This document shows, piece after piece, positions 39,989 to 54,416 of a stretch of 64,000 nucleotides of DNA. The translations under genes and the position numbers were made by a program. Where the stretch lies: NCBI RefSeq assembly GCF_024707545.1, contig NZ_CP062229.1, forward strand, positions 6,243,501 to 6,307,500. The letters are read 5' to 3'. The stretch comes from Mesorhizobium onobrychidis. GTDB lineage: Bacteria; Pseudomonadota; Alphaproteobacteria; Rhizobiales; Rhizobiaceae. The notes under the pieces were generated by a model that searched no databases, was not told the origin of the DNA, and worked only from the letters and a program-made list of their open reading frames with translations. The first letter of the stretch is position 1. The number at the start of each line of letters is the position of its first letter.

Positions 39989-40101
39989 CAAGCCGCCGCC
40001 GGAGTCAAGCACCGCGTGGTTCAAATCACGCTAAGCGGGCCAAAAACAGGGTTCGGCCCGCTGTAGCGCGATCGACACCTCATTGGCCCGGCCGAGGATT
40101 T

Positions 40102-40145
40102 AAAACGTTTGCAATCTGACTGGAACCCATTACAAACGCTTCAAA
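40102..40145 (+). promoter_or_regulatory. Two LacI-type operator-like sequences before lacI
   Basis: AAAACGTTTGCAA (40102-40114) and TTACAAACGCTTCAAA (40130-40145) both carry the AAACG(T/C)TT core of LacI/GalR operators, about 28 bases apart. They suggest autoregulation. Confidence 0.5.
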
Positions 40146-40165
40146 CACTTCGATTGGGAGGAACG

Positions 40166-41224
40166 GTGCCGGCCCGCGTCACCAAGCTCAAGGAACTTGC
40201 AGCGCAGCTCGACCTGTCGATCACCACGGTGTCGCGGGCGCTTGCCGGTCATCAGCAGATCGCCTTGAAGACGCGCGAGCGCGTCACTGAAGCCGCGCGC
40301 CAGGCCGGTTACGTGCCCAACACGGCAGCCCGCACGCTGGTCTCCGGCCGCAGCGGCTTTGTCGGCATGGTGCTGCCGATCCGCGGCCCCAATCTGGTCG
40401 ATTCCTTCCTTGGCGAATTCGTCACCGGGCTTGGCGAAGGGCTGGTTTCGCATGGCACCGATCTGATCCTCGCCGCCGCGGCGCAAGGCCAGTCGGAACT
40501 TTCCGTGCTTCGCCATGTTGTCGAATCCGGACGCGCCGATGGCGTCGTCGTCACCCGCATCGCCGAGGTCGACGAACGGCTCGCCTATCTGCGCCAACGC
40601 AATTTCCCATTCGTCGCCCATGGCCGGCTGCTCGACACCGACTTCGCCTACAACTGGCTAGACACCGATGGCGCGCACGCCTTCGGTGAAGCCTTCGACA
40701 TGCTCTACGATCTCGGGCACCGCCATTTCGGGCTGGTGACGATCGCCGAGCCGATGACGTTTCGCCATCTGCGGCAAGACGGGCTCGCCGCAGCGATCGC
40801 GCGCCGAGGCGATCCGTCGGTCAGGCTCGATGTAGCGACGGCGCCGCGCTTCGATCGCGGCGCCCGCATCCAGGCCATCAACCGGCTGCTGCATGCTGAC
40901 GAGCGGCCGACGGCTATCGTCGCGCTGTTCGACGAGCTGGCGCTCAGCGTCATGGAAGAGGCCGCCCGCGCCGGCCTGGTCATCCCTCGCGACCTTTCCG
41001 TCATCGGCTTCGACAACATCGCCGCCTCGGCCTATGCACCGCCCGGCCTCACTACATTCGATGCGTCGATCCGCCAATGCGCGCGCGAGATCGGCGAGAT
41101 GCTGTTGACCGTCATCGGCGACAAGTCCGCCGCGCCGCTGACACGGCTGATCCGGCCGACATTGGTTTCGCGGGCAAGCCATGGCCCGGCACCCATAGGA
41201 CCGGCACCCACAGGACAAAACTGA
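40166..41224 (+). CDS. LacI-family transcriptional regulator
   Basis: A 352-residue LacI/GalR repressor. The HTH is TKLKELAAQLDLSITTVSRALAGH, the hinge region RQAGYVPNTAARTLVSGRSG, and the periplasmic-binding-like effector domain ends in VIGFDNIAASAYAPPGLTTF. The start is GTG 40166 with GGGAGG at 40156-40161; the upstream ATG at 40109 would add 19 residues across the operator. It is directly followed by a sugar importer and a glycoside hydrolase, the likely targets. Confidence 0.88.
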   Translation: MPARVTKLKELAAQLDLSITTVSRALAGHQQIALKTRERVTEAARQAGYVPNTAARTLVSGRSGFVGMVLPIRGPNLVDSFLGEFVTGLGEGLVSHGTDLILAAAAQGQSELSVLRHVVESGRADGVVVTRIAEVDERLAYLRQRNFPFVAHGRLLDTDFAYNWLDTDGAHAFGEAFDMLYDLGHRHFGLVTIAEPMTFRHLRQDGLAAAIARRGDPSVRLDVATAPRFDRGARIQAINRLLHADERPTAIVALFDELALSVMEEAARAGLVIPRDLSVIGFDNIAASAYAPPGLTTFDASIRQCAREIGEMLLTVIGDKSAAPLTRLIRPTLVSRASHGPAPIGPAPTGQN

Positions 41225-41259
41225 AGCCGGGCGGCGCACAACCAGGGAGGAAGACCACG

Positions 41260-42520
41260 ATGAATGCGTTGAAGACACTGGCAGGCGCCGCACTCGCGCT
41301 GTCGATGGCGATCGGCGGCGCGCAGGCCCAGGTGCTGTTCTGGTCGACGCAGGCGCGGCCTGTGGAGGAGACGCAGAAAATGCGCAGCGAAGTGCTGAAG
41401 TCGTTTGACGGCCAGGTCGACTACCAAGTCGCCGAGGACGGGCCCTGGCTGACCCGCCTCCAGGCCGAGCTGCAGGCCGGCTCCGGCACCATCGGCGTAC
41501 TCGGCGGCCTGCACGGTGACTTCTCCACGGTCGGCGCGAACCTTGTCGATCTGTCCGGCGTCGATATCGGCGGCGTCAAGCTCAACGAGGCCTACAAGAA
41601 GCTCGGCATGCTCGGCACAGGCGACCAGAAATATCTGCCTTGGATGCAGGCCACCTTCCTGATGGCGGCCAACAAGCAGGCGCTGCAATATCTACCGGCC
41701 GGCGTCGATCTCAACAAAATCACCTATGACAAGCTGATCGAATGGTCGAAGAACATCGCCGAGAAGACCGGCTCGCCGAAATTCGGCTTCCCGGCCGGAC
41801 CGAAGGGGCTGAAGCACCGTTTCTTCGAGGGTTTTCTCTATCCGTCCTACACTGGCTCGATGGTGACCAAGTTCCGCTCGGCGGAGGCCGAGACCGCGTG
41901 GAACAAGTTCAAGGAATTGTGGCAGTACACCAACCCGAATTCGACCAGCTATGCCTTCATGCAGGAGCCGCTGCTGACCGGCGACGTGTGGGTGGCGTTC
42001 GATCACGTGGCGCGGCTTGCCGATGCGTTCAACCAGAAGCCGGACGAGTTCGTCGCCTTCCCGGCGCCAGCCGGCCCGGCGGGTCGCGGCTACATGCCGG
42101 TGGTCGCCGGCGTCGCCATTCCGAAGACCGGATATGGACAAGGCCAAGGCGCTGGTTGCCTATATGCTGAAGCCGGAAACACAGATCGCGACGCTCAAGG
42201 CCACCAACTTCTTCCCCGTGGTCGACGTAAATCTGCCCGACGACATGCCGGCCTCGGTGAAAGCCTTCGGCCCGGTGATCGCCACCATGACCGGTGCGCC
42301 GGATGCGCTGCCGGCATTGCTGCCGATGGGGCTCGGCGATCTGGGCGGCAAGTTCAACCAGGTCTATGTCGACAGTTTCGAGCGTATCGTGCTCGGTGGC
42401 CAGGATGTGCGTGGCGTGATCGAGGAACAGGCGACGGCGCTCAAGGCCCTCATCGACCAGGCCAAGGCACCGTGCTGGGCACCCGATAAGCCGTCCGAAG
42501 GCGCCTGCCCGGTCGACTAG
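41260..42520 (+). pseudogene. Sugar ABC transporter binding-protein gene, frameshifted
   Basis: The gene starts at ATG 41260 (GGGAGGA upstream) with a signal peptide (MNALKTLAGAALALSMAIGGAQAQ) and a family 1 binding-protein body. It reads normally to GVAIPKT (about base 42129). The frame then continues as unrelated sequence to 42489. The expected C-terminal 130 residues (PDMDKAKALVAYMLKPETQ... CWAPDKPSEGACPVD) are found in the next frame from about 42128 to 42520. Loss of 2 (or 5) bases near 42128 explains this. It may be a real mutation or a sequencing error; the rest of the transporter is intact. Confidence 0.82.
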
Positions 42521-42533
42521 AATCCTCCCGAGG

Positions 42534-42564
42534 GGCGTCCGGAACCTGTTGCGTTCCGGGCGCC
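42534..42564 (+). terminator. Hairpin after the binding-protein gene
   Basis: CCGGAAC (42539-42545) pairs with GTTCCGG (42553-42559), extended by GGCG (42534-42537) with CGCC (42561-42564) across one mismatch. It lies 14 bases after the stop and before the permease gene, like the hairpins at 7401 and 37439. Confidence 0.55.
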
Positions 42565-42590
42565 AGCCGCACCACGCCAAAGGACATGCC

Positions 42591-43436
42591 ATGCACGGCA
42601 AGGCCCTGCCCTATCTGCTGCTGATGCCGGCGACGCTGTTCCTTTGCGTCTTCTTCCTCTACCCGTTCGCGCTGGTCGCCTTCGAAGCTTTCACCCGTGA
42701 CGGCGGCTTCACGCTGGACAATTTTCGAACCATGACCGGCAACTGGAAATTCCCGGTCGCCTTCTGGAACACCATCCTGCTCGCAGCCATCGTCGTGCCG
42801 ATCCAGCTGGTTATGGCGCTGTTGATGGCTACGGTCGTGTCCAGGCTCGAAACCGGGCGGGGTGCGGCGCTCTACATCTTCGCCATTCCGCTCGGCATCT
42901 CCGATCTCGCCGCCGGGCTGATCTGGCTCGCCATTTTCGACCAGTCCGGCTTCCTCAACACTCTGCTGTCGAACCTCGGCCTCGTCGACAGGCCCGTCAT
43001 GTTCCTCGGCTACCAGAGCAAGCTGACCATCTTCGTCGCCGTGATACTGGCCGAGATCTGGCGCGCGACTGCGATCATGATGGTCATCCTGGTCGCTGGC
43101 ATGGGGCTCATCCCCCGGGAATATCACGAGGCGGCCGAAGTCTTTGGCGCGAGCCCGTGGAAGCGCTTCGTCAAAATCACGCTGCCCTTGCTGCGCCCTA
43201 GCCTGCAGACGGCGATCATCCTGCGCGTCATCCTCGCCTTCGAGGTTTTCGCCGTGGTGGCGGCGCTCGGCGGCACCAATTTGCCGGTATTGATGGGTGA
43301 GACCTACAACTGGCAGTTCTCGCTGCAGGACCGCAACGTTGCCGCCGCCTTCGCCCTGCTCATCCTCGCCATCTCGGTCGGCCTCACGCTGTTCTTCCTG
43401 CGTGTGCTGCGCGTGCCGAAGGAAGCGCGCATATGA
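42591..43436 (+). CDS. Sugar ABC transporter permease (MalF/UgpA type)
   Basis: A 281-residue permease with six hydrophobic segments and the EAA-like loop YHEAAEVFGASPWKRFVKITLPLLRP (about residues 178-203). ATG 42591 has AAGGA 7 bases upstream. It overlaps the next permease by 4 bases. Confidence 0.92.
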   Translation: MHGKALPYLLLMPATLFLCVFFLYPFALVAFEAFTRDGGFTLDNFRTMTGNWKFPVAFWNTILLAAIVVPIQLVMALLMATVVSRLETGRGAALYIFAIPLGISDLAAGLIWLAIFDQSGFLNTLLSNLGLVDRPVMFLGYQSKLTIFVAVILAEIWRATAIMMVILVAGMGLIPREYHEAAEVFGASPWKRFVKITLPLLRPSLQTAIILRVILAFEVFAVVAALGGTNLPVLMGETYNWQFSLQDRNVAAAFALLILAISVGLTLFFLRVLRVPKEARI

Positions 43437-44275
43437 GCGCCGTCGCAGAGATGCCAATCCCCGCGCCCGCGACCCGCAAGGCCGGCAACTGGCTGCTGGT
43501 CGCCACCGTCATCCTGCTATCGGTCTGGGTGCTGCTGCCGATCTATCTTCTGATAGTCAATGCCTTGTCGTCGCCGGAAGAGGTCACTGCCTTTCCGAAA
43601 CGCTTCTTCCCTTCCTTCGATTTCGGCAGCCTGTCTTTCTTCATCAATTTCGCCGGCGTCGGCCGTGCGCTGTGGAACTCGGTCCTCGTCGCCACGCTGA
43701 CGATGATCCTCTCGATCGGTTTCGGCGCGCCCGCCGGCTACGCGCTGTCGCGCTTCGATTTTCCGGGCAAGGGCACGTTCCGCTTCCTGGTGCTGATGAC
43801 CCGCGCCTTTCCGCTGCCGCTGCTGGCGCTGCCGCTTGCGGTGATGTTCATCCGCACCGGCCTCGACGACACCGCCATCGGGCTGGCGCTGGTCCACACC
43901 ACGCTGGCGCTGCCCTTCGCGGTGCTGATCACCTTCTCACTGTTCTCAGGCATTCCGGTAGAGCTCGAGGAAGCGGCGTGGACGCTCGGCTGCACCCGCC
44001 TGCAGGCCTTTCGCAAGGTCATCCTGCCGCTGGCACTGCCCGGCATCGCGGCCTCGGCGGTCTTTGCCTTCACCATCTCCTGGAACGAGGTGTTTGCCGC
44101 CGCCGTGCTCACGATCGAGAACCGGACGCTGACCGCCTTCCTGCTGCAGAGCCTCGGCGAGTCGCCGCTCTATCTCAAATTCGCAGGTGGGGCTGCACTG
44201 GTCATCCCAGCGCTGATCTTCATCTTCGCCGTCCGCAAATACCTGTTCGCCATGTGGGGGATCGCCAACCGATGA
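43433..44275 (+). CDS. Sugar ABC transporter permease (MalG type)
   Basis: A 280-residue permease with six hydrophobic segments and the loop LEEAAWTLGCTRLQAFRKVILPLALPG (about residues 177-203). It is coupled to the upstream permease through ATGA. Confidence 0.92.
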   Translation: MSAVAEMPIPAPATRKAGNWLLVATVILLSVWVLLPIYLLIVNALSSPEEVTAFPKRFFPSFDFGSLSFFINFAGVGRALWNSVLVATLTMILSIGFGAPAGYALSRFDFPGKGTFRFLVLMTRAFPLPLLALPLAVMFIRTGLDDTAIGLALVHTTLALPFAVLITFSLFSGIPVELEEAAWTLGCTRLQAFRKVILPLALPGIAASAVFAFTISWNEVFAAAVLTIENRTLTAFLLQSLGESPLYLKFAGGAALVIPALIFIFAVRKYLFAMWGIANR

Positions 44276-44296
44276 CGCGCGATAGGGAGAAAGCCG

Positions 44297-45337
44297 ATGG
44301 CTGAGATCGCCATAAAACAAGTGGCCAAACGCTTCGGCGGCTTCACCGCGCTGCATTCGATAGACCTCACCATCGCCGACCAGGAGTTCATGGTGCTGCT
44401 CGGCGCCTCGGGCTGCGGCAAGACGACATTGCTCAGGATCGTCGCCGGATTGGAAATGCCGAGCCAGGGCGAGGTCTGGATCGGCGGCCGTCGCGTCGAT
44501 CATCTGCCGCCGCGCGACCGCGGCATCGCCATGGTGTTCCAAAGCTATGCGGTCTTTCCGCATCTGACCGTGTTCGAGAACATCGCCTTCGGCCTGCGCA
44601 TGAAGAGATTGCCGCAGCAAGAGGTCGAGCGCCGCGTCAACCGCACCGCCGAGCTCATGCATATCGAGCAATTGCTGAAACGCTATTCGGGCCAGCTTTC
44701 CGGCGGCCAGCGCCAGCGCGTCGCCGTCGCCCGCGCGCTCGCCATGGAGCCCGACGTCATCCTGATGGACGAGCCGCTGTCCAATCTCGACGCGCTGCTC
44801 AGGCTCGAAATGCGCGCCGAACTCAAGGGTGTGCTCGCCGCGTCCAAGACCACCACCATCTATGTCACTCACGATCAAGTCGAGGCGATGAGCCTCGCCG
44901 ACCGCATCGCCGTCATACATCAGGGCCACATCGTCCAGGCCGCCTCGCCGGTCGAGGTCTATAGCAATCCGGCCGCACGCTTCGTCGGTTCCTTCATCGG
45001 CAATCCGCCGATGAATTTCATCCCCGCGACGAAGACTGCGAACGGAAGCTGGACCGTCGCCGGCCTGACGCTGCCCGGTCCCAAATCGGACAAGCACAAA
45101 ATTGAATTCGCCATTCGCCCCGAAGATGTCGACGCAGGTGACGAGGGGCTGCATGCCACCGTGCGCGTCGTCGAGCCGCTCGGTCCGCACACGCTGGTCA
45201 CCTGCGACGTCGAGGGTGGGCTGTTTCGCGCCATCCTCGAATCGAATGCCACGATCGCCGTCGGCGACCACCTGCGACTTGCGCCCAAAGCCGATCGCAT
45301 CCGCTGGTTCGATCCTGAAACCACCAACGCCCTTTGA
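44297..45337 (+). CDS. Sugar ABC transporter ATPase (MalK/UgpC type)
   Basis: A 346-residue ATPase with all canonical elements: GASGCGKTTLLR, LSGGQRQRVAVARAL, VILMDEPLSNLDALL and YVTHDQVEAMSLAD, then a MalK-type C-terminal domain. One ATPase gene serves this importer, so it acts as a homodimer, in contrast to the polyol transporter with two ATPases. Confidence 0.94.
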   Translation: MAEIAIKQVAKRFGGFTALHSIDLTIADQEFMVLLGASGCGKTTLLRIVAGLEMPSQGEVWIGGRRVDHLPPRDRGIAMVFQSYAVFPHLTVFENIAFGLRMKRLPQQEVERRVNRTAELMHIEQLLKRYSGQLSGGQRQRVAVARALAMEPDVILMDEPLSNLDALLRLEMRAELKGVLAASKTTTIYVTHDQVEAMSLADRIAVIHQGHIVQAASPVEVYSNPAARFVGSFIGNPPMNFIPATKTANGSWTVAGLTLPGPKSDKHKIEFAIRPEDVDAGDEGLHATVRVVEPLGPHTLVTCDVEGGLFRAILESNATIAVGDHLRLAPKADRIRWFDPETTNAL

Positions 45338-45400
45338 TCCCGCGAACGCCCTTCAATCGCGCCAACGCCCTTCAATCCTGAAAGTACGAACGCTTCAATG
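45326..45400 (+). repeat. Short tandem repeat at the end of the ATPase gene
   Basis: Units AACGCCCTTTGATCC (45326), AACGCCCTTCAATC (45345), AACGCCCTTCAATC (45364) and a shortened AACGCTTCAATG (45389) recur at 19, 19 and 25 bases. The first unit contains the ATPase stop codon and the last contains the start of the next gene. Confidence 0.7.
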
Positions 45401-46678
45401 ATCTCTCTTGCCGTCAACGAAACCATCGCCCGTGCCGTCGAGGTGCTCAGGGAAAACGACCACGGCGACTATACCATCCCGACCAAGGGCCTCTATCCGT
45501 TCCAGTGGAACTGGGATTCCTGCCTGACCGCGCTCGGTCTTGCCCACTATGACGAGGCGCGCGCCTGGACCGAGATCGAGACGCTGTTCGCCCATCAATG
45601 GCCGGACGGCATGGTGCCGCATATCGTCTTCCATGTCCTGAACGACAGCTATTTCCCCGGACCGGAGGTCTGGAGGACCAATCGCCCGACTGCCACCTCC
45701 GGCATCACCCAGCCGGCGGTGGCGGGCTTTGCGGTTCGCCGCCTGTTCGACCGGGCCAGGGACAAGAAACTGGCCGCCGAGCGCGCCCGCGCGCTGCTGC
45801 CGAAGATCGACGCCTGGCATCGCTGGTTCTACGAAAACCGCGATCCAAGAGACGAAGGACTGGTCGCCATTATCCATCCATGGGAGTCCGGCCGCGACAA
45901 TTCCATCGACTGGGACCATGCCTTCGAGCGCGTGCCGACCGAAGGCGTCGAGCCCTATACGCGCCGCGACACCTTGCATGCCGACCCGGCGCACCGGCCG
46001 ACCAAGGCGCAATATGACCGCTACCTCTGGCTGCTGCAGCATTTTCGCGCACTTGGCTGGGACAATGCAAAACTGCACGATGCCTCACCCTTCCAGATCG
46101 TCGATCCCGGCTTCAACGCCATCCTGATCCGCTCAGCGGCCGACCTTGCCGATCTCGCCGAGACGCTTGGCGAAATGGAGATCGCCGACGCTAACCGCAG
46201 CCGCGCCAAAAAAGGGCTTTCGGCGATGGAGCGGCTGTGGAGCGATACGTACGGCCAATATCTCTGCCTCGACCGCGTCGCCGGAAAGCTCGTCGACAGC
46301 GCCTCCGTCGGAGGCATCCTGCCGGTCTTCTCGGCCATCCCGAAACCCCGCACTGCTGCAATCGCCGCCACCATCGAGCGTATCGCCGGCAAGGCAGGCT
46401 ACATCGTCCCCTCGCACGATCTCGACGATCCCCGCTTCGACGCCAAACGCTACTGGCGCGGCCCGGTCTGGCTGGTGGTCAACTACATGATCGCCGACGG
46501 CCTTGCTGCTGCCGGCTATGCTGATGTCGCCCGGCATATCACCCAGTCCAGCCTCGATCTCATCGCCGATAGCGGCTTTGCCGAATATTACGATCCGCTC
46601 AGCGGCGAACCGCTCGGCGGCGGCCGTTTCACCTGGACGGCGGCAATGGTGATCGAATTCCTGAAAGGCAGAGGCTGA
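45398..46678 (+). CDS. (alpha/alpha)6 glycoside hydrolase, GH63/mannosylglycerate-hydrolase-like
   Basis: A 426-residue cytoplasmic protein without signal peptide. The segments NWDSCLTALGL (about 38-48), HPWESGRDNSIDWD (about 160-173) and KRYWRGPVWLVVNYM (about 340-354) fit the trehalase/GH63-type (alpha/alpha)6 barrel found in mannosylglycerate and glucosylglycerate hydrolases. It would split a small glycoside brought in by the preceding importer, possibly a compatible solute; the substrate is not determined. It has no clear ribosome site, and its start lies in the last unit of a tandem repeat. Confidence 0.72.
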   Translation: MISLAVNETIARAVEVLRENDHGDYTIPTKGLYPFQWNWDSCLTALGLAHYDEARAWTEIETLFAHQWPDGMVPHIVFHVLNDSYFPGPEVWRTNRPTATSGITQPAVAGFAVRRLFDRARDKKLAAERARALLPKIDAWHRWFYENRDPRDEGLVAIIHPWESGRDNSIDWDHAFERVPTEGVEPYTRRDTLHADPAHRPTKAQYDRYLWLLQHFRALGWDNAKLHDASPFQIVDPGFNAILIRSAADLADLAETLGEMEIADANRSRAKKGLSAMERLWSDTYGQYLCLDRVAGKLVDSASVGGILPVFSAIPKPRTAAIAATIERIAGKAGYIVPSHDLDDPRFDAKRYWRGPVWLVVNYMIADGLAAAGYADVARHITQSSLDLIADSGFAEYYDPLSGEPLGGGRFTWTAAMVIEFLKGRG

Positions 46679-46967: not shown

Positions 46968-48368
46968 TTGGAATTCGATTTGAAGACCATTGAGGCGCTT
47001 GCCCCCGATCAAGCGTCGCTGAGCGCTGCCTCCAAGCTGACCAAGCGATCGAACTGGCCGCGGCTGGAAAAGAATGAGCAGCAGGCGCTCATCTGGGGTG
47101 AATGTCAGGGCTCCGGTTCCAATCCTTATCGAGTGGTGGTCGACACTGGCGACCACAGCTACAAATGCACCTGCCCGTCGCGAAAATTCCCGTGCAAGCA
47201 CACGCTGGCCCTGATGTGGATTGCCGCCACTGCGCCAGCCAGTTTTGCAGCCGCTGAATCGATACCGGAATGGGTGAATGACTGGCTTGGCCGGCGCAGG
47301 AAGACGACGCCAGCGCCAGGGCAACCGACATCCGGCGCGGCAGCCAAGAGCATCGATGAAGCCGCACGGACGGACGAGAGCGCCGCGGTCGAAGACGTAG
47401 CGGCGGTGGAGCGTCGCGAGGCAGCGCAGCGCAAGCGGGCGGGAGACACGCGAGAAGCAGTGTCGGCGGCGCTCGATGAGCTCGACCAATGGATCGCCGA
47501 TCAGTTGCGGCTTGGACTTTCCGGGTTTGTCGACGGCAGCAGCGACCGTTGCCGCCGGATTGCCGCCCGGCTGGTCGACATGAAGGCAACCGCGCTTGCC
47601 GGTCGCATCGACGAGATCCCACCGCGGCTCATGGCGCTGCGCAGTGAGGAAAGACCAGATGCTGCGATCCGCGAGCTTGGCAAGCTTGTGCTGCTGGCCA
47701 AGGCGTGGCGGTCGGCGCCCGACGATCCCGAGTTGAAGCGCCTTGTATCGACGTCTGAGACCCGCGAACAGGTTCTGGCCAATCCCAATGCAAGACAGGT
47801 CGAAAGCTTCTGGGAAGTTCTGGGCGAGAAGATCGAGAGCCGCCGTGACGGTCTCGTCAGCCATTCGACCTGGTTGCTAGATCTGAAGAGCACTACCCCG
47901 AAATTTGCCGTGCTGCTCGATTATTTTCCGGCTTCTGCCGGACGCCGGTCCAACGCTTTTGCTCCGGGCGATCGTTTCGATGCTCGGCTGGTCTTCTATC
48001 CATCACGCAAGCCGCTCCGCGCACTGGTGGCGGAGCGCATGGGTGAAGTGATGTCCGGCGCGTGGCCTGATTTCAGCTTCGGCGCTGCAAAGGACCCACT
48101 CGCCACGCATGCTTCCTATCAGGATGCTGCGCCTTGGATCACCGACTGTCCTCTCATGCTGCCGCCTGGTGCGATCCTGGTCGACGACCGCGGCACAGGC
48201 TGGTGGCAGGCCGCGGATGATCCGCAAGGGATCGCCTTGCCGATCGCAGGCGCTGTCAATCAAACATTGCTCGGCCTCGACCTTGCGGCCACGGCAGCGC
48301 TCTGGGATGGCGCCCGGCTTGACCTTCTGGCGGCTCAAAGCGGATTCGGGAGACTTGACCTGTCGTGA
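46968..48368 (+). CDS. SWIM zinc-finger protein
   Basis: A 466-residue protein. Near the N-terminus YKCTCPSRKFPCKHTL (Cys67, Cys69, Cys76, His78) is a SWIM zinc finger (CxCxnCxH), a module for DNA or protein binding. The following 390 residues are largely helical and match nothing I recognise in detail. The start is TTG 46968 with GAGGGG upstream. It leads a five-gene cluster with overlaps or gaps of only a few bases and overlaps the next gene by 4. Its role is unknown; it probably recruits a target for the MoxR/VWA partners. Confidence 0.85.
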   Translation: MEFDLKTIEALAPDQASLSAASKLTKRSNWPRLEKNEQQALIWGECQGSGSNPYRVVVDTGDHSYKCTCPSRKFPCKHTLALMWIAATAPASFAAAESIPEWVNDWLGRRRKTTPAPGQPTSGAAAKSIDEAARTDESAAVEDVAAVERREAAQRKRAGDTREAVSAALDELDQWIADQLRLGLSGFVDGSSDRCRRIAARLVDMKATALAGRIDEIPPRLMALRSEERPDAAIRELGKLVLLAKAWRSAPDDPELKRLVSTSETREQVLANPNARQVESFWEVLGEKIESRRDGLVSHSTWLLDLKSTTPKFAVLLDYFPASAGRRSNAFAPGDRFDARLVFYPSRKPLRALVAERMGEVMSGAWPDFSFGAAKDPLATHASYQDAAPWITDCPLMLPPGAILVDDRGTGWWQAADDPQGIALPIAGAVNQTLLGLDLAATAALWDGARLDLLAAQSGFGRLDLS

Positions 48369-49873
48369 ACGAGGGCGAGCAAACAGGCCTGGCGACAATG
48401 CGCGATTGCTGGATCACCGGCGGAGCCACCTTCGATCTGGCTCCGACCGCCTGGAAGACAATCGCCGGCGGTGCAAGTCCCGACGAGCAGGAGCGCCGGC
48501 TCCTGGCAATCGCAGCACAAGCGCTCGACGTCGCCCTGCGGCCGGCGGCGCCGAAGACGCTCAAGCGCCGGCCGCCGCTGCCCAGGCTTGCGCTCCCGAT
48601 GCTGCCGGAGCGGTTGCGGCCGCTGTTGAGAGCCGCTCTGAAACATGGCGTCGACGCGAGACGCAAGACGCGCGTGGTGACGCTTGTCGCCAGCCGCGGC
48701 TTTGTGCTCCATCCGATGGACTGGATGCCCGTCGCGTCGGATCAGAACAGTCCGGACGTCTACGCTCCCTGGATCGACTGGCAAGCAAGCGTGGACGGGG
48801 AGAGACATGCCCCGCAAGAGAAACTGACGGCGGAAAATTGGGATGAGTTCTATCCCGCCGCGCGACGCATCGCGCTGGCAGACATGCGCCGCAGTGGACC
48901 GGCTTCGGCTCGACTGCTGGTCGAGGCCAAGGCTTCGGGCGAGCCCGCCGAGGTCAGGCTTGCGCTGATCGAACTCATGCGCTTCGGCCTGAATCCTGAG
49001 GACGCGCCGTTCCTTAAAAGCCTCTCCGCCGACAGGTCCGGCAAGGTGCGCGAACTGGCTGGCCGACTGCTGGCAAGGTTGGGAGAGCACGGCCGTTCAA
49101 ACGATGGCGGACCGGGTGATCCCGCAGCTGAACTCGCCGCTTTCATCAGCGAAGGCAAATCCGGCTTCATCCGCCGCCGCAGCATCTACACGCCGGCGAA
49201 GTTGAAATCGCCGGCGCAGGAAAAGCGTCGCGCCGAACTGTTCGAGACCTGCAACCTGGTCGACCTCGCCGCGCGGTTCAGTGCTACCGAACCTGAGTTC
49301 ATAGGAGCCTGGCAATTCGGCGCCGACAACAATGCCGACATCCTGATCGCACGAATGGTCGCCGCGTCAGGGAGCGACGCCGCGGTGACGCATATGGCGG
49401 ACGCACTTGTCGCCGATGGCGGCAAGCCAGCGCTGTTCGTACTGCACCTCACGCCGCGCCTGGACAGTCGCAGAAAGCGTGTCCTCGTCAGGCTGATCCT
49501 GAAAGACTCGAAATATCTTGGTGCTCTCAACCTTGCCGAAGGCATTGAAGCGAGTTGGCTGGAATGGGGCGACCTGACGAATGGCCAGACGCTGCCGGCG
49601 TTGCGTTCTGCTGTCGCGGGAAACGACGACATCGTGAAGCGAGGCATCGACGAAATACTGGAAACGATGGGCTTTCTCGCCACTGCGGCGACGGCGGAAA
49701 AATTGATCGAGGACGTTGTTGCGGCCGGTATGCCCCCGGCGGCTCCCTCGCTCGTGCTTCTACGTCTCAACGCATCACTGGCGGGGGGCCTGGAACCAAC
49801 ACGTGACCAATCCGGAGAACAGCAAAATGAACGCAGCCATCCGCCTCCCTGTCGAGCAGGCCTACGCCTCTGA
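48365..49873 (+). CDS. DUF5691 family protein
   Basis: A 502-residue protein matching the DUF5691 family, which is habitually encoded with SWIM, MoxR, DUF5682 and VWA genes. The middle part contains HEAT-like helical repeats (VRLALIELMRFGLNPEDAPFLKSLSADRSGKVRELAGRLLARLG). It is therefore probably a helical scaffold. The last 16 codons overlap the start of the MoxR gene in another frame (47 bases), so its true end or the coupling may be unusual. No enzymatic motif is seen. Confidence 0.78.
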   Translation: MNEGEQTGLATMRDCWITGGATFDLAPTAWKTIAGGASPDEQERRLLAIAAQALDVALRPAAPKTLKRRPPLPRLALPMLPERLRPLLRAALKHGVDARRKTRVVTLVASRGFVLHPMDWMPVASDQNSPDVYAPWIDWQASVDGERHAPQEKLTAENWDEFYPAARRIALADMRRSGPASARLLVEAKASGEPAEVRLALIELMRFGLNPEDAPFLKSLSADRSGKVRELAGRLLARLGEHGRSNDGGPGDPAAELAAFISEGKSGFIRRRSIYTPAKLKSPAQEKRRAELFETCNLVDLAARFSATEPEFIGAWQFGADNNADILIARMVAASGSDAAVTHMADALVADGGKPALFVLHLTPRLDSRRKRVLVRLILKDSKYLGALNLAEGIEASWLEWGDLTNGQTLPALRSAVAGNDDIVKRGIDEILETMGFLATAATAEKLIEDVVAAGMPPAAPSLVLLRLNASLAGGLEPTRDQSGEQQNERSHPPPCRAGLRL

Positions 49874-50906
49874 ATTGCAGGCGCTGGCGCGCGGTGACGA
49901 CAGGCAAAAGCCTGCCGGCTGGAGCCTGTCGCCACAGGCTGTGCTGACCTATCTGCTGGGCGGGAAGGCCGGCGACGGCACGCCGGTAACGCCAAAATAT
50001 GTCGGTCGCCGCCGATTGATGGAAACCGCAGTGGCAACGCTCGCCACCGACCGGGCGCTGTTGCTGCTCGGCGTTCCCGGAACGGCCAAGTCCTGGGTGT
50101 CTGAACATCTCGCCGCCGCCATCATGGGTGACTCGACGCTGATCGTGCAGTGCACGGCCGGCACCGACGAGAACCAGATCCGCTATGGCTGGAACTATGC
50201 GCAACTTCTGGCAAAGGGCCCGAGCCAGGAAGCATTGGTGCCGACGCCGCTCTACCGCGCCATGCAGACCGGCAAGCTCTGCCGGCTCGAGGAACTGACG
50301 CGCATGGGGTCGGATGTGCAGGACACGCTGATCACCGTGCTTTCAGAAAAGATGATGCCGATCCCGGAATTGAACACATCGATCTATGCCCAGCGCGGCT
50401 TCAACATCATCGCCACGGCAAACAACCGGGACAAAGGTGTGAATGAACTCTCCTCGGCACTCAAGCGCCGTTTCAATGTCGTGGTGCTGCCCTTGCCGGA
50501 AGACATGGCGGAAGAGGTGGCGATCGTCTCCAAGCGGGTCGATGAGATGGCCGGCGGGCTCGACCTGCCGGTGCCGAAAAATGTCGGCGAGGAGATCGCC
50601 CGCGTGCTGACCATCTTCCGCGAATTGCGGTCCGGTGCGACCGCCGACGGCAAGGTGACACTGAAGACGCCTTCGGGCTCGCTGTCGACCGCAGAGGCGA
50701 TCGCGACGATGGTTGGCGGGCTCAGCCAGGCGGCGTGGTTCGACAGCGGCAAGCTCGGCGCCGAAGGTCTCGCCGCCAGCCTAGTCGGCGCGATCGTGAA
50801 AGATCCGGTACAGGACAAGGCGGTGCTGGAGGAATACCTGGAAACAGTGCTCAAGAAGCGGCCTGACTATGCAGGCTACTATGCGGCCTTGAACGCAGCG
50901 ATCTGA
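49827..50906 (+). CDS. MoxR-family AAA+ ATPase
   Basis: A 359-residue AAA+ ATPase. Walker A is LLLGVPGTAKSWVSEHL (about residue 78). The Walker B position reads CRLEELTR, with Glu where most have Asp. Sensor 1 and arginine finger are in FNIIATANNRDKGVNELSSALKRRFN. MoxR ATPases act with VWA proteins as chelatase-like or chaperone-like pairs that remodel a partner. ATG 49827 with GGAGAA upstream is chosen; the frame continues upstream without a better start. It is followed after 6 bases by the DUF5682 gene and then by the VWA gene. Confidence 0.9.
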   Translation: MNAAIRLPVEQAYASELQALARGDDRQKPAGWSLSPQAVLTYLLGGKAGDGTPVTPKYVGRRRLMETAVATLATDRALLLLGVPGTAKSWVSEHLAAAIMGDSTLIVQCTAGTDENQIRYGWNYAQLLAKGPSQEALVPTPLYRAMQTGKLCRLEELTRMGSDVQDTLITVLSEKMMPIPELNTSIYAQRGFNIIATANNRDKGVNELSSALKRRFNVVVLPLPEDMAEEVAIVSKRVDEMAGGLDLPVPKNVGEEIARVLTIFRELRSGATADGKVTLKTPSGSLSTAEAIATMVGGLSQAAWFDSGKLGAEGLAASLVGAIVKDPVQDKAVLEEYLETVLKKRPDYAGYYAALNAAI

Positions 50907-50912
50907 CGCGCC

Positions 50913-53171
50913 ATGGGGCACAGCGACGTCACCTATTTCGGTATACGCCATCACGGGCCGGGTTCCGCCGACAGCCTTGTGCAGGCATTGCAGGATTTGC
51001 AGCCGGTCGCCGTGCTGATCGAGGGGCCGATCGACGCCTCCGCGCTGCTGCCCTTGCTGGCGCGCCCGGAAATGCAGCCGCCGGTGGCGCTGCTTTGCTA
51101 TCCCGAGGAGGATCCGGCTTCGACAAGCTTCTGGCCATTCGCCGAGTTCTCGCCCGAATATCAGGCGGTGCTTTGGGCCGTGGACAAAAAGGCGGCGTTG
51201 CGCTTCATCGACCTGCCTTCGTCGGCGCGCTTCACGGCAGCGGCGGCCGACGGCGCGGAAAAGGTCGATACCGGCGAAGCGAAGGAAGCAAGCGAGCATG
51301 ACGACGTTGCTCCGCATCGGCGTGATCCGATAGGCACGCTGGCCCGCGCCGCCGGCTATGAGGATGGCGAAAGCTGGTGGTCGGACATCATCGAGCAGAA
51401 TCCGGAACCAGGCCCCATATTCGCGGCCATCTCCGACGCGATGATAACGCTGAGGGATGGTGAAGGCTCGATCGCGCAGTATGAGGCCCAGCGCGAAGCG
51501 CATATGCGGCTCGAAATCGCTGCGGCGCGCAAGGAATTCGATGGACCTATCGCCGTCGTCTGCGGGGCGTGGCATGTGCCGGCACTGCAGGCGACACACC
51601 CGCAGAAAAACGATCAAGCCCTGCTTAAGGGGATTGCAAGGCGCAAGAGCACAATGACATTGGCGCCGTGGACGGGACCGCGTCTGGCGCTGGGCTACGG
51701 CTATGGCGCGGGCGTCGTCGCACCGGGCTGGTGCAAGCATCTCTGGCGCACGCGCGGCCGGCGCGATGCAGCAACCTTGTGGCTTGCAATGATTGCAGCG
51801 GTGCTGCGGGTGAAGGGTCATCTGGTCTCGACCGCTTCGTTGATCGAAGCCGAGCGGCTCGCCCGGACGCTCGCCGCGATTCGCGAGCGGCCGAAACCCG
51901 GGTTTGAGGAATTGCGCGACGCCGCAATTGCGGCTCTGTTCAATGGCGAAGCGTTGCTGTGGGCCCTGGTCGAGGCCGAGCTGCTTCTAGGTGCGGACGT
52001 GGGCGAAATTCCACCCGACACGCCGTTGGCGCCGTTGATCGAGGATCTGCAGCGCAACCAGAAGGCGGCGCGGCTGAAACCTGAAGCGCTGGAGCGGGAA
52101 CTATCAGTCGACCTGCGAAGCGACAGCGGGCTGTTTCGTTCGACATTGCTGCATCGGCTGAACGTGCTTGGTGTGCATTGGGGCAAGTTGACGGACGCCG
52201 GTCGGAGCCGTGGCACCTTCCGCGAGCGGTGGACCCTGGCCTGGGAGCCGGAATATGCCGTTCGCCTGGTGGAGAACCTGATCTACGGGCCGACCATCGA
52301 AAAGGCTGCCAACGGCCGCCTGATCCAGATGATCGAAGCCGCAGCAACCCTCGATACGCTTGCGGCACTGGTCCAGGGCGCCATCACGGCAGGCCTGTCG
52401 GAAGCATCGACGGCCGGTCTCGCGGCCCTGGAGGCGCGCGCGGCGCGCAGCAGCGAATGCCTGGAGATTCTGGCCTCGGTGCCGCCGCTCGCCGACATCA
52501 TCCGCTACGGCGAGGCCCGCAAAACGGAGACGAACCGGCTTTCCGGCCTGATGGAGCGGCTGATCGTCGAAGGTGCGATCGCGCTTCCCTATGCGGCACG
52601 CGACCTGGATGAGCAGGCCGCCGCGACGCTGGCTAGCGCGATGCGCAAGGCCGATGAGGCGATCAGGCTGGTCGAGCCCGGGGAAGACGTGCTGGACGGA
52701 TGGCGCAACGGGCTGGCTGCCGTGCTGGAGGGGTCGCGGGCGACGGCGCTGCTGGCCGGATGCGCCGCGCACCTGCTCTACGAGGCCGGCCGCCTGTCCG
52801 CCGAAGCCGCAGCCGGACTGCTCGGGCGACGCCTGTCGCCGGGCACGCCGGTCGCCGAGGCGGCGGGGTTCTTCGAGGGCTTCTTCAGCACAGCCGGTCA
52901 ACGGCTGATCTATGACGAAGGTCTGCGCGCCGCGGTCGATTCCTGGCTCAAATCTCTCGACGAAGATGCTTTCATCGCGCACCTGCCGTTGCTGCGCCGC
53001 GTCTTTTCCAATCTGGACAGCATGGAGCGCCGGCGGCTGATCGAAGCGGTTCTCGGCCGCGCCGCGCGCTTGCCGGCTGGCCTGACGCCGACGCCGGATG
53101 GCGGCGAGGCATGGCGCCGACACCTGGAACGGCTTGGACCATTGCTCATGGGAGGAAACGGCAATGGATGA
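50913..53171 (+). CDS. DUF5682 family protein, TraB/EreA/ChaN-like N-terminal region
   Basis: A 752-residue protein of family DUF5682, unknown function. The N-terminus reads FGIRHHGPGSA (Gly10-His13), then VLIEGP (Glu37), FIDLP (about 99-103), REAHM (about 194) and CGAWHVPAL (Gly218-His221). Two Gly-x-x-His motifs, an early Glu and an Arg-rich segment between them are the hallmark of the TraB/Tiki/EreA/ChaN fold. I therefore suggest this half is a metal-dependent hydrolase-like domain. The C-terminal 450 residues are helical. It overlaps the VWA gene by 8 bases. Confidence 0.8.
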   Translation: MGHSDVTYFGIRHHGPGSADSLVQALQDLQPVAVLIEGPIDASALLPLLARPEMQPPVALLCYPEEDPASTSFWPFAEFSPEYQAVLWAVDKKAALRFIDLPSSARFTAAAADGAEKVDTGEAKEASEHDDVAPHRRDPIGTLARAAGYEDGESWWSDIIEQNPEPGPIFAAISDAMITLRDGEGSIAQYEAQREAHMRLEIAAARKEFDGPIAVVCGAWHVPALQATHPQKNDQALLKGIARRKSTMTLAPWTGPRLALGYGYGAGVVAPGWCKHLWRTRGRRDAATLWLAMIAAVLRVKGHLVSTASLIEAERLARTLAAIRERPKPGFEELRDAAIAALFNGEALLWALVEAELLLGADVGEIPPDTPLAPLIEDLQRNQKAARLKPEALERELSVDLRSDSGLFRSTLLHRLNVLGVHWGKLTDAGRSRGTFRERWTLAWEPEYAVRLVENLIYGPTIEKAANGRLIQMIEAAATLDTLAALVQGAITAGLSEASTAGLAALEARAARSSECLEILASVPPLADIIRYGEARKTETNRLSGLMERLIVEGAIALPYAARDLDEQAAATLASAMRKADEAIRLVEPGEDVLDGWRNGLAAVLEGSRATALLAGCAAHLLYEAGRLSAEAAAGLLGRRLSPGTPVAEAAGFFEGFFSTAGQRLIYDEGLRAAVDSWLKSLDEDAFIAHLPLLRRVFSNLDSMERRRLIEAVLGRAARLPAGLTPTPDGGEAWRRHLERLGPLLMGGNGNG

Positions 53172-54416
53172 CGAGGGCGAAATGAACGGGCCTGGCCCAC
53201 TCACTGCAGACGCCGGAGGGGAGCGCCGCTGGCGCCTGGCGATCGGCGCCGATGACGAGGCGTCGGCGGCACTTTCCAGCGACGACAAACGACTTTCGGC
53301 GGCACTCGATGCTCTCTACGGCGATGGTGCCAGCGCCGCAGCCAGCGACCCGCGCAAGCGGCGCGGCGGACTCGGCCGCTCGGCGCCGCGCGTTGCACAG
53401 TGGATGGGCGACATTCGCTCCTATTTCCCGCGCCAGTCGTTCAGATCGTCCAGAAGGACGCTTTCGAACGGCTGGACCTGAAGCAGATGCTGATGGAGCC
53501 GGAGTTCCTCAAAGCGATCGAGGCCGACGTCAACCTCGTCGCCGACCTGATTTCGCTGCGCTCGGTCATGCCGGCCAAGACCAAGGACATCGCCCGCACG
53601 ATCATCGCCGATATCGTTGCCAAGCTGATGCAAAGGCTGGAGCAGAAAACCGCCGAGGCGATACGCGGCGCGCTCGACCGATCGAGGCGCACCAACCGCC
53701 CGCGTGCGCGCGATATCGACTGGCAGCGCACCATCTCGGCGAACCTTCGCCACTACCAGCCCGAGCACAAGACCATCGTGCCGGAGAAGCTGGTTGGTTT
53801 CATGCGCAAGCAGCGCCGGCTTGTCGATCTTGACGAAGTCGTTCTCTGCGTCGACCAGTCCGGCTCGATGGCGAGTTCGGTGATCTACGCCTCGATCTTC
53901 GCAGCGGTGATGGCCTCGCTGCCGGTCGTGCGCACGAAGCTCGTCTGTTTCGATACTGCCATCGTCGACCTTACGGAGGAACTCAGCGATCCCGTCGAAG
54001 TGCTGTTCGGCGTGCAGCTTGGCGGCGGTACCGACATCAACCAGGCGGTCGCCTACTGCGCCGACCGTATCGAGCGGCCAACCAAGTCGCATCTGGTATT
54101 GATCACCGACCTCTACGAGGGCGGCAACGGCCAGGAGTTGCTGCGGCGGCTGGCGGCGCTGGTTCGATCCGGCGTCAATCTCGTCGTGCTTCTGGCGCTG
54201 ACCGACCAGGGCCGGCCCGGCTATGATCCCACCATGGCAGGTTCGGTTGCGGCGCTTGGCGTGCCGGTCTTCGCCTGCACGCCGGATCTGTTCCCGGACA
54301 TGATGGCGGCGGCATTGCGCCGGGAGGATATCGGCGCCTGGGCGGCGGGGGCCGATATCAAGCTCATTCGCGCCGACGCCGAGGCGCCGAGTCACTCAAC
54401 ACCTACTCCCATATAG
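53164..54416 (+). CDS. VWA-domain protein, partner of the MoxR ATPase; read through a -1 frameshift
   Basis: Two frames together give one family-like protein. ATG 53164 (GGAGGAA upstream) encodes about 89 residues to GDIRSYFP. The same protein continues in the -1 frame as APVVQIVQKDAFERLDLKQM to the stop at 54416. The VWA domain has a complete MIDAS: DQSGSMASS, the Thr in GGGTDIN and the Asp in LITDLYEGG. The shift occurs at T-TTC-CCG (53424-53430), which has the X-XXY-YYZ shape of a slippery site. A single lost G after CCG gives the same joined product. Unshifted, the first frame stops at 53481. Confidence 0.78.

Follow-up and report, generated by a model that had tools for sequence, protein, structure and literature searches.

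The stretch of DNA analyzed here (the window) is 64,000 nt long and comes from Mesorhizobium onobrychidis (NZ_CP062229.1, 6,243,501-6,307,500), which has a 7.55 Mb genome in a two-contig assembly. Five co-directional genes at 46968-54416 of the window (plus strand) encode a SWIM zinc-finger protein, a DUF5691 protein, a MoxR-type AAA+ ATPase, a DUF5682 protein and a CoxE-type VWA protein. As judged from sequence similarity, the set belongs with the YehL-type MoxR-VWA systems, as a variant with five genes, and is a cousin of Escherichia coli yehLMPQ. The features are as follows:

46968..48368, plus strand: SWIM zinc-finger protein, 466 amino acids (aa), TTG start (PF04434, 24.3 bits, cut-off 19.6)
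48365..49873, plus strand: DUF5691 protein, 502 aa, predicted ARM/HEAT-like helical repeat (PF18944, 74.9 bits, cut-off 27, residues 138-239 only)
49827..50906, plus strand: MoxR-type AAA+ ATPase, YehL type, 359 aa (AAA_5 PF07728, 132.7 bits, cut-off 22, E 1.2e-38)
50913..53171, plus strand: DUF5682 protein, 752 aa (PF18934, 699.5 bits, cut-off 26, E 7e-210)
53164..53481, plus strand: 5' part of the VWA gene, in a different frame from the remainder (blastp match to YehP 14-85, E 4e-8)
53400..54416, plus strand: 3' part of the VWA (CoxE-like) gene, with the metal ion-dependent adhesion site (MIDAS) motifs DQSGS, GGGTD and ITD (VWA_CoxE PF05762, 190.7 bits, cut-off 26.4)

All five proteins were assigned by a hidden Markov model match above the curated Pfam cut-off. 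The SWIM and DUF5691 genes overlap by 4 bases and the DUF5691 and MoxR genes by 47 bases, taking the ATG at 49827 as the MoxR start. MoxR and DUF5682 are separated by 6 bases, and DUF5682 overlaps the VWA gene by 8 bases, the VWA start at 53164 being set by homology. The SWIM gene begins with an uncommon start codon, TTG, which is kept in 18/18 aligned copies (window counted). When the window genes were compared with those of five close relatives, the ratio of nonsynonymous to synonymous substitution rates (dN/dS) was 0.02-0.24 in 25/25 comparisons. We conclude that these are genuine genes and that purifying selection acts on all five. The closest named relatives are Mesorhizobium, and the DUF5682 protein of a Mesorhizobium metagenome-assembled genome is 97% identical.

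The MoxR protein carries the Walker A motif GVPGTAKS at residue 82, RLEEL at 153 (the Walker B position), TAN at 197 and KRRF at 213; its nearest solved structures by sequence are midasin chains (E 7e-28). The zinc-finger motif CxCPSRKxPCKH is found at residues 67-78 of the SWIM protein and is kept in 73/73 long SWIM proteins checked. No Pfam match beyond PF04434 was found in this protein. The MIDAS motif DxSxS is present in the VWA proteins of 77/77 relatives. The AlphaFold2 (AF2) model of the DUF5691 protein is mostly helical, with a predicted local distance difference test score (pLDDT) of 86.3, and its structural matches are of the ARM/HEAT type, too weak to establish homology; the protein is predicted to be an ARM/HEAT-like helical-repeat scaffold. 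Searches by sequence for solved relatives of DUF5682, its N-domain, DUF5691 and the SWIM protein gave none that was convincing. A preliminary description of this DNA had listed five tightly packed genes of these families, among them a zinc-finger protein, a HEAT-like protein and a MIDAS-containing VWA protein. The packing and all five families stood, the HEAT-like character as a prediction; the VWA open reading frame (ORF) listed there proved to be the 3' part alone.

Five-gene order and kinship with yehLMPQ

A scan of one genome per species (84,980 species) gave at least 583 relatives, of which the 80 best were kept; being the best-scoring, these 80 loci are biased to the window's own operon type. 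All five genes are found on the same strand and in the same order at 74/80 loci. Going by record titles, the loci include Alpha-, Beta- and Gammaproteobacteria, Cyanobacteria, Acidobacteria, Planctomycetota, Chloroflexi and Verrucomicrobia. Of the six incomplete loci, three (L062, L070 and L106) reach contig ends and one (L084) is flanked by only 1.5 and 0.6 kb. DUF5691 scored above cut-off in 5/247 genomes of the family, exactly the 5 with a strong-scoring DUF5682, and in 6/299 genomes of the phylum, exactly the 6 with a strong-scoring DUF5682 (the two samples share two genomes). Sub-cut-off DUF5691 matches (3 and 2 genomes in the two samples) are all in genomes without DUF5682. In a Hymenobacter (Bacteroidota) plasmid the SWIM and DUF5691 proteins are fused in a single gene of 1009 codons (L159:6204-9233), with the SWIM profile at 2-461 and the DUF5691 profile at 498-997; the gene table of this plasmid, which is incomplete, shows no separate SWIM gene. 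The annotation of a Deinococcus plasmid shows the same five-gene order and one small gene in addition. We conclude that the five genes form one unit. Strict co-occurrence of the five families, proposed earlier as a check, held for DUF5691, which above cut-off tracks strong DUF5682 in both samples; it did not hold for the rest, since there are also sets of MoxR, DUF5682, VWA and a SWIM protein that lack DUF5691. In the Hymenobacter plasmid, MoxR and DUF5682 are separated by an additional gene that matches no Pfam family.

A DUF5682 match in the E. coli control genome led to yehL-yehM-yehP-yehQ (b2119-b2122 in K-12). The core order MoxR-DUF5682-VWA is common to the window and E. coli. The window MoxR protein shows 42% identity to YehL over 362 columns (E 1e-81), and DUF5682 shows 28% identity to YehM over most of its length. 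The 3' VWA ORF (53400-54416) aligns to YehP 79-377 with 36% identity (E 8e-65), and the N-terminal part matches YehP 14-85. The E. coli operon also encodes a SWIM protein, but its gene is placed last there and first in the window, and the two proteins are alignable in the zinc finger only. Neither the SWIM nor the DUF5691 protein of the window has a significant BLAST partner in the E. coli yeh set. The E. coli type lacks DUF5691 (PF18944 is silent in the control genome) and instead has the DUF4132 gene yehI upstream of yehL, with yehK between. DUF5691 was considered as a DUF4132 homolog and rejected; the two profiles gave no detectable alignment (Prob 1.4).

The E. coli set was matched in 5301/5426 genomes (5162/5426 at a coverage of at least 80%), and 5320/5322 places are chromosomal. 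Thus yehLMPQ is near-core in E. coli, being present in about 95% of complete genomes. A second operon type, with DUF4132 near YehL, YehM, YehP and YehQ homologs, also exists within the window's own family. DUF4132-type operons were found at L026-L029 and on an Iodobacter and a Streptomyces plasmid; assignment to this type is by synteny in these and in E. coli only, and by score elsewhere. Genome G215 has both operon types (L023 and L026, by synteny), and G609 has both as judged from two DUF5682 scores. The Streptomyces plasmid (L161:3893-16612) encodes a DUF4132 protein, a protein of 1639 aa that matches no Pfam family, an AAA ATPase and a DUF5682 protein about 1257 aa long; its incomplete gene table contains no VWA annotation.

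Distribution and genomic surroundings

A DUF5682 protein of any type was found in 2/190 genomes of the class and 12/299 of the phylum, and window-type DUF5682 in 72/146 genomes of the genus. Relatives also appear in 36 plasmid-collection records, several of them chromosome-sized. In 16/17 close relatives (of these 17, 16 are titled Mesorhizobium) the operon flanks derive, rearranged, from elsewhere in the same 64-kb window, the exception being L042. This fits one old chromosomal neighborhood with losses. Recurrent flank genes were sought; the largest cluster (LysR-like by eye) is found at 7/63 more distant loci at varying distances and was taken as background.

The patchy distribution and the plasmid records could also be read as signs of an anti-phage or other conflict system, in which MoxR-VWA would sense an invader via SWIM or DUF5691 and activate DUF5682 as a toxic hydrolase. 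The preliminary description had likened the set to a programmed enzyme-activation or conflict/stress module. One copy does lie beside a type I restriction-modification set on a mobilizable plasmid and another near VapC and a recombinase. Three loci carry extra genes inside the operon, between DUF5682 and VWA: a PIN-domain gene (L077:12611-13018), an AbiEii/AbiEi-like pair (L099:9409-11080) and a NADAR gene (L100:7704-8150). A literature search for a NADAR/WGR/MoxR link gave nothing useful. In a scan of the flanks of 15 loci, ZorA, ZorB and ZorE matched one protein each and AbiD another. However, flank PADLOC families numbered 35 (97 proteins, 15 loci) against 35 in the control (96 proteins, 15 arbitrary regions). 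These proteins represent 97/185 flank ORFs (15/20 loci) and 96/197 control ORFs (15/20 regions); the ORFs were selected by a greedy length criterion and so include some non-genes, and the controls are Pseudomonadota only. Matches were counted per family, not per protein, with 25/35 families shown on each side. A defense island was rejected on this count, the flanks having no more PADLOC families than the control. The best match of the five proteins in PADLOC-DB 2.0.0 is to a type II restriction-enzyme model (E 0.0099), short of the level of the curated models. The viral_contigs scan, which finds close relatives only, confirmed none, and one unverified 14-kb phage record was seen outside that scan; phage origin was rejected on these results and on the base composition of the region, which is like the rest of the window. 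The near-core, chromosomal status of yehLMPQ and the shared neighborhood of the flanks also argue against a conflict function. Overall, we consider the conflict reading quite unlikely, and the conflict part of the earlier suggestion is not supported.

Two further observations concern the region 5' of the operon. The segment 46899-46935, upstream of the SWIM gene (TTCTTCACAAACGGCTATCTAT), is well conserved in several close relatives and is a candidate promoter or operator. Immediately 5' of the operon is a block (40047-46660) that encodes an ABC transporter as well as a glycoside hydrolase of MGH1-like type. The glycoside hydrolase gene (45398-46678) matches PF22422 with 382 bits and the NCBIfam glucosylglycerate hydrolase model with 364 bits, under the cut-off of 550. 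The block is missing here in the 97%-identical relative L031, in which homology skips from 40047 to 46660.

The split VWA gene

The VWA gene is found at 77/80 loci. In the window its frame changes near 53420-53445, whereas the gene is in a single frame in 17/17 close relatives. In a DNA alignment the window is one base short (net) compared with 31/31 relatives, some of which may be one genome from two collections; 15 further minus-strand relatives, aligned by blastn, are outside this count. The frameshift is private to the window assembly, which indicates a private lesion or a sequencing error and not a conserved frameshift. A programmed frameshift was ruled out by the single frame in the 31/31 relatives compared.

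With its VWA gene split in the assembly, the remodeling machine proposed below may be inactive in this strain. A stronger version of this idea is that the operon is decaying and functionless here, the VWA gene being broken and the rest being lost, which is compatible with any function elsewhere. The uniqueness of the frameshift points this way, together with a DUF5682 gene that is broken or partial in 4/72 carriers of the genus and the lack of a match in 74/146 genus genomes. Against it, the remaining four genes are open and the dN/dS of every part, the 3' VWA part included, is at most 0.24. A sequencing error is still a possible source of the shift, and three more VWA_CoxE matches elsewhere in the host genome might substitute. 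Decay in this strain appears to us somewhat unlikely, though by no means far-fetched.

DUF5682, the proposed machine and related systems

DUF5682 consists of an N-terminal alpha/beta domain (residues 1 to about 260) and a mostly helical C-terminal part (AF2 pLDDT 86.7); strands and helices alternate in the N-domain model. Near-invariant N-domain positions over the 80 loci are RHH (12-14), E37, SPE (80-82), D100, REAHM (194-198) and GAWH (218-221). H13 and H14 are each kept in 78 of the 80 loci, E37 in 79 and H221 in 80 (the remainder are gaps), and YehM also retains all four. TIKI proteins have a catalytic 2His/2Glu set and a parallel-sheet core, and ChaN is of TIKI fold (PMC6254334). Comparison of the DUF5682 profile with TraB gave P 0.0039 with 51 sequences (the best of nine profiles) and P 0.0052 with 67 sequences (the best of eight). 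As yardsticks, TraB-ChaN gave 0.0011, ChaN-EreA 0.0001 and TraB-EreA 0.097. In the profile alignment, GTxH, E, RN and GAxH of TraB are aligned with GIRH, E37, R194 and GAWH of DUF5682, and the two share GxxH...E...RxxxM...GxxH in register. H13, E37 and H221 align with the His, Glu and His of the TIKI superfamily; three of the four catalytic residues would be kept. The first Glu of the 2His/2Glu set is absent in DUF5682 (Ile at position 11), as in the GTxH of TraB. The TraB score was reached by 0/50 motif-shuffled profiles and by 17/50 profiles with the motifs kept and the rest shuffled, so the TraB signal sits in the motifs. Together these alignments are suggestive of a TIKI/TraB-like hydrolase link for the N-domain, with marginal statistical support. 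The specific proposal that DUF5682 is a TIKI/TraB-type protease or esterase, inactive until remodeled by a dedicated MoxR-VWA motor, is in our estimate unlikely. If true, yehLMPQ and its DUF5691 cousin would represent a widespread, so far unrecognized class of ATP-gated hydrolases, with the DUF5691-SWIM unit (fused in Hymenobacter) as the targeting arm.

For the set as a whole we propose a YehL-type MoxR-VWA remodeling machine with DUF5682 as its client enzyme; we put this at about an even chance. MoxR would form a hexameric ATPase, and this motor, coupled by way of the VWA MIDAS face, would remodel one dedicated large partner, DUF5682. The DUF5691 protein may act as the ARM/HEAT-like scaffold keeping the parts together, and the SWIM protein as a zinc-finger adaptor whose target may be a nucleic acid or a protein. 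DUF5682 would be the working subunit, its near-invariant H-E-H set possibly forming a TIKI/TraB-type hydrolase center, and remodeling at the cost of ATP would serve to open, load or relocate it. The machine would probably operate within the cell, in an accessory response to stress or for maintenance. What is observed here is the gene content and order, the purifying selection, the ATPase, MIDAS and zinc-finger motifs, the relationship to yehLMPQ and the SWIM-DUF5691 fusion; the hexamer, the complex, the client role of DUF5682, its hydrolase chemistry and the stress setting are inferred. The preliminary description had likened the set to MoxR-VWA remodeling machines; a MoxR-VWA pair linked to a single large partner, with a helical-repeat protein and a conserved SWIM zinc finger, is the supported part of that reading.

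Several observations weigh against this proposal. Besides the split VWA gene in the window strain and the broken or partial DUF5682 genes in the genus, locus L072 lacks a VWA gene within 9.9 kb downstream and L083 lacks MoxR, DUF5691 and SWIM within 4.3 kb upstream. No homology is detectable between DUF5691 and DUF4132 or between the two SWIM proteins beyond the finger, and equivalence of the two operon types is thus assumed. As for the enzyme, the score of the real DUF5682-TraB comparison is equalled or exceeded by 3/150 ten-column block shuffles, and the top five of 60 twenty-column shuffles, which leave motif blocks whole, score 31.4-34.6 versus the real 29.3. The DUF5682 profile is not significant against ChaN and EreA; with ChaN, the real score is equalled or exceeded by 50/50 motif-shuffled profiles. 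Foldseek with the whole DUF5682 model gave no PDB match at E <= 0.001. Whole-model Foldseek and VIA returned helical repeats only, in rows 413-751 (the C-terminal part), and no TIKI chain, the N-domain being hardly probed.

The three-part logic of a small AAA+ protein, a VWA protein and one large dedicated subunit is shared with CobN-CobS-CobT and Mg-chelatase. The set could accordingly be viewed as a chelatase-type machine for metal or cofactor insertion, with MoxR and VWA as the motor pair and DUF5682 as the large subunit handling a metal or tetrapyrrole. The His-rich RHH..GAWH set of DUF5682 could bind metal, and the TIKI-fold protein ChaN is a haem binder. In addition, E. coli yehM is listed among the genes mutated in copper-exposed evolved populations, the available part of that paper giving no mechanism (PMC12409786). 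On the other hand, DUF5682 has no Pfam or NCBIfam match to chelatase subunits, and no recurrent cofactor gene was seen among the 25 of 119 flank families listed. A chelatase-like function is in our view improbable.

In the literature searched, no paper naming DUF5682 or DUF5691 was found. An experimental function for the five-gene set or yehLMPQ was not found either in the part of the literature covered, in agreement with the preliminary description. The gene yehQ occurs in the strain table of a butanol-tolerance study, again with no mechanism in the part available (PMC6442406). We found no published function for this module, although its gene order is conserved over several phyla and a four-gene cousin occurs in about 95% of complete E. 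coli genomes. If the hydrolase reading is true, MoxR-VWA machines would gain a new type of client, a TIKI-like enzyme.

Among known systems, E. coli RavA-ViaA likewise combines a MoxR ATPase with a dedicated VWA cofactor, although we know of no DUF5682, DUF5691 or SWIM partner for it. The NCBIfam ViaA model matches the window VWA protein with only E 0.063 and 12.5 bits (cut-off 500). The ATPase activity of RavA is raised by ViaA binding (PMC3893208). The vWA-MoxR-VMAP ternary conflict systems, named in PMC10910872, and the MoxR-vWA-beta-propeller systems resemble the window in having MoxR, VWA and a third family in each operon. The bpMoxR model PF20030 scores 25.8 in the window, under its cut-off of 27, and the Pfam hits of the five proteins (E <= 1) include no VMAP, effector or propeller model, the VMAP content of the library being unchecked. 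The best NCBIfam match of the window MoxR protein is MadB, with 51.8 bits versus a cut-off of 475. According to PMC3893208, MoxR proteins fall into seven subfamilies including YehL, are generally accompanied by a VWA cofactor and act in a chaperone-like manner in the maturation of dedicated complexes. The window ATPase fits the YehL subfamily by its match to YehL, the one subfamily compared directly, and a VWA_CoxE gene lies two genes past MoxR. The literature searched on YehL-type systems did not show the five-gene form that includes DUF5691. The preliminary description had not noted any kin of the set; it is a variant of yehLMPQ whose ATPase matches an already named subfamily, and this kinship makes its function testable in E. 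coli K-12.

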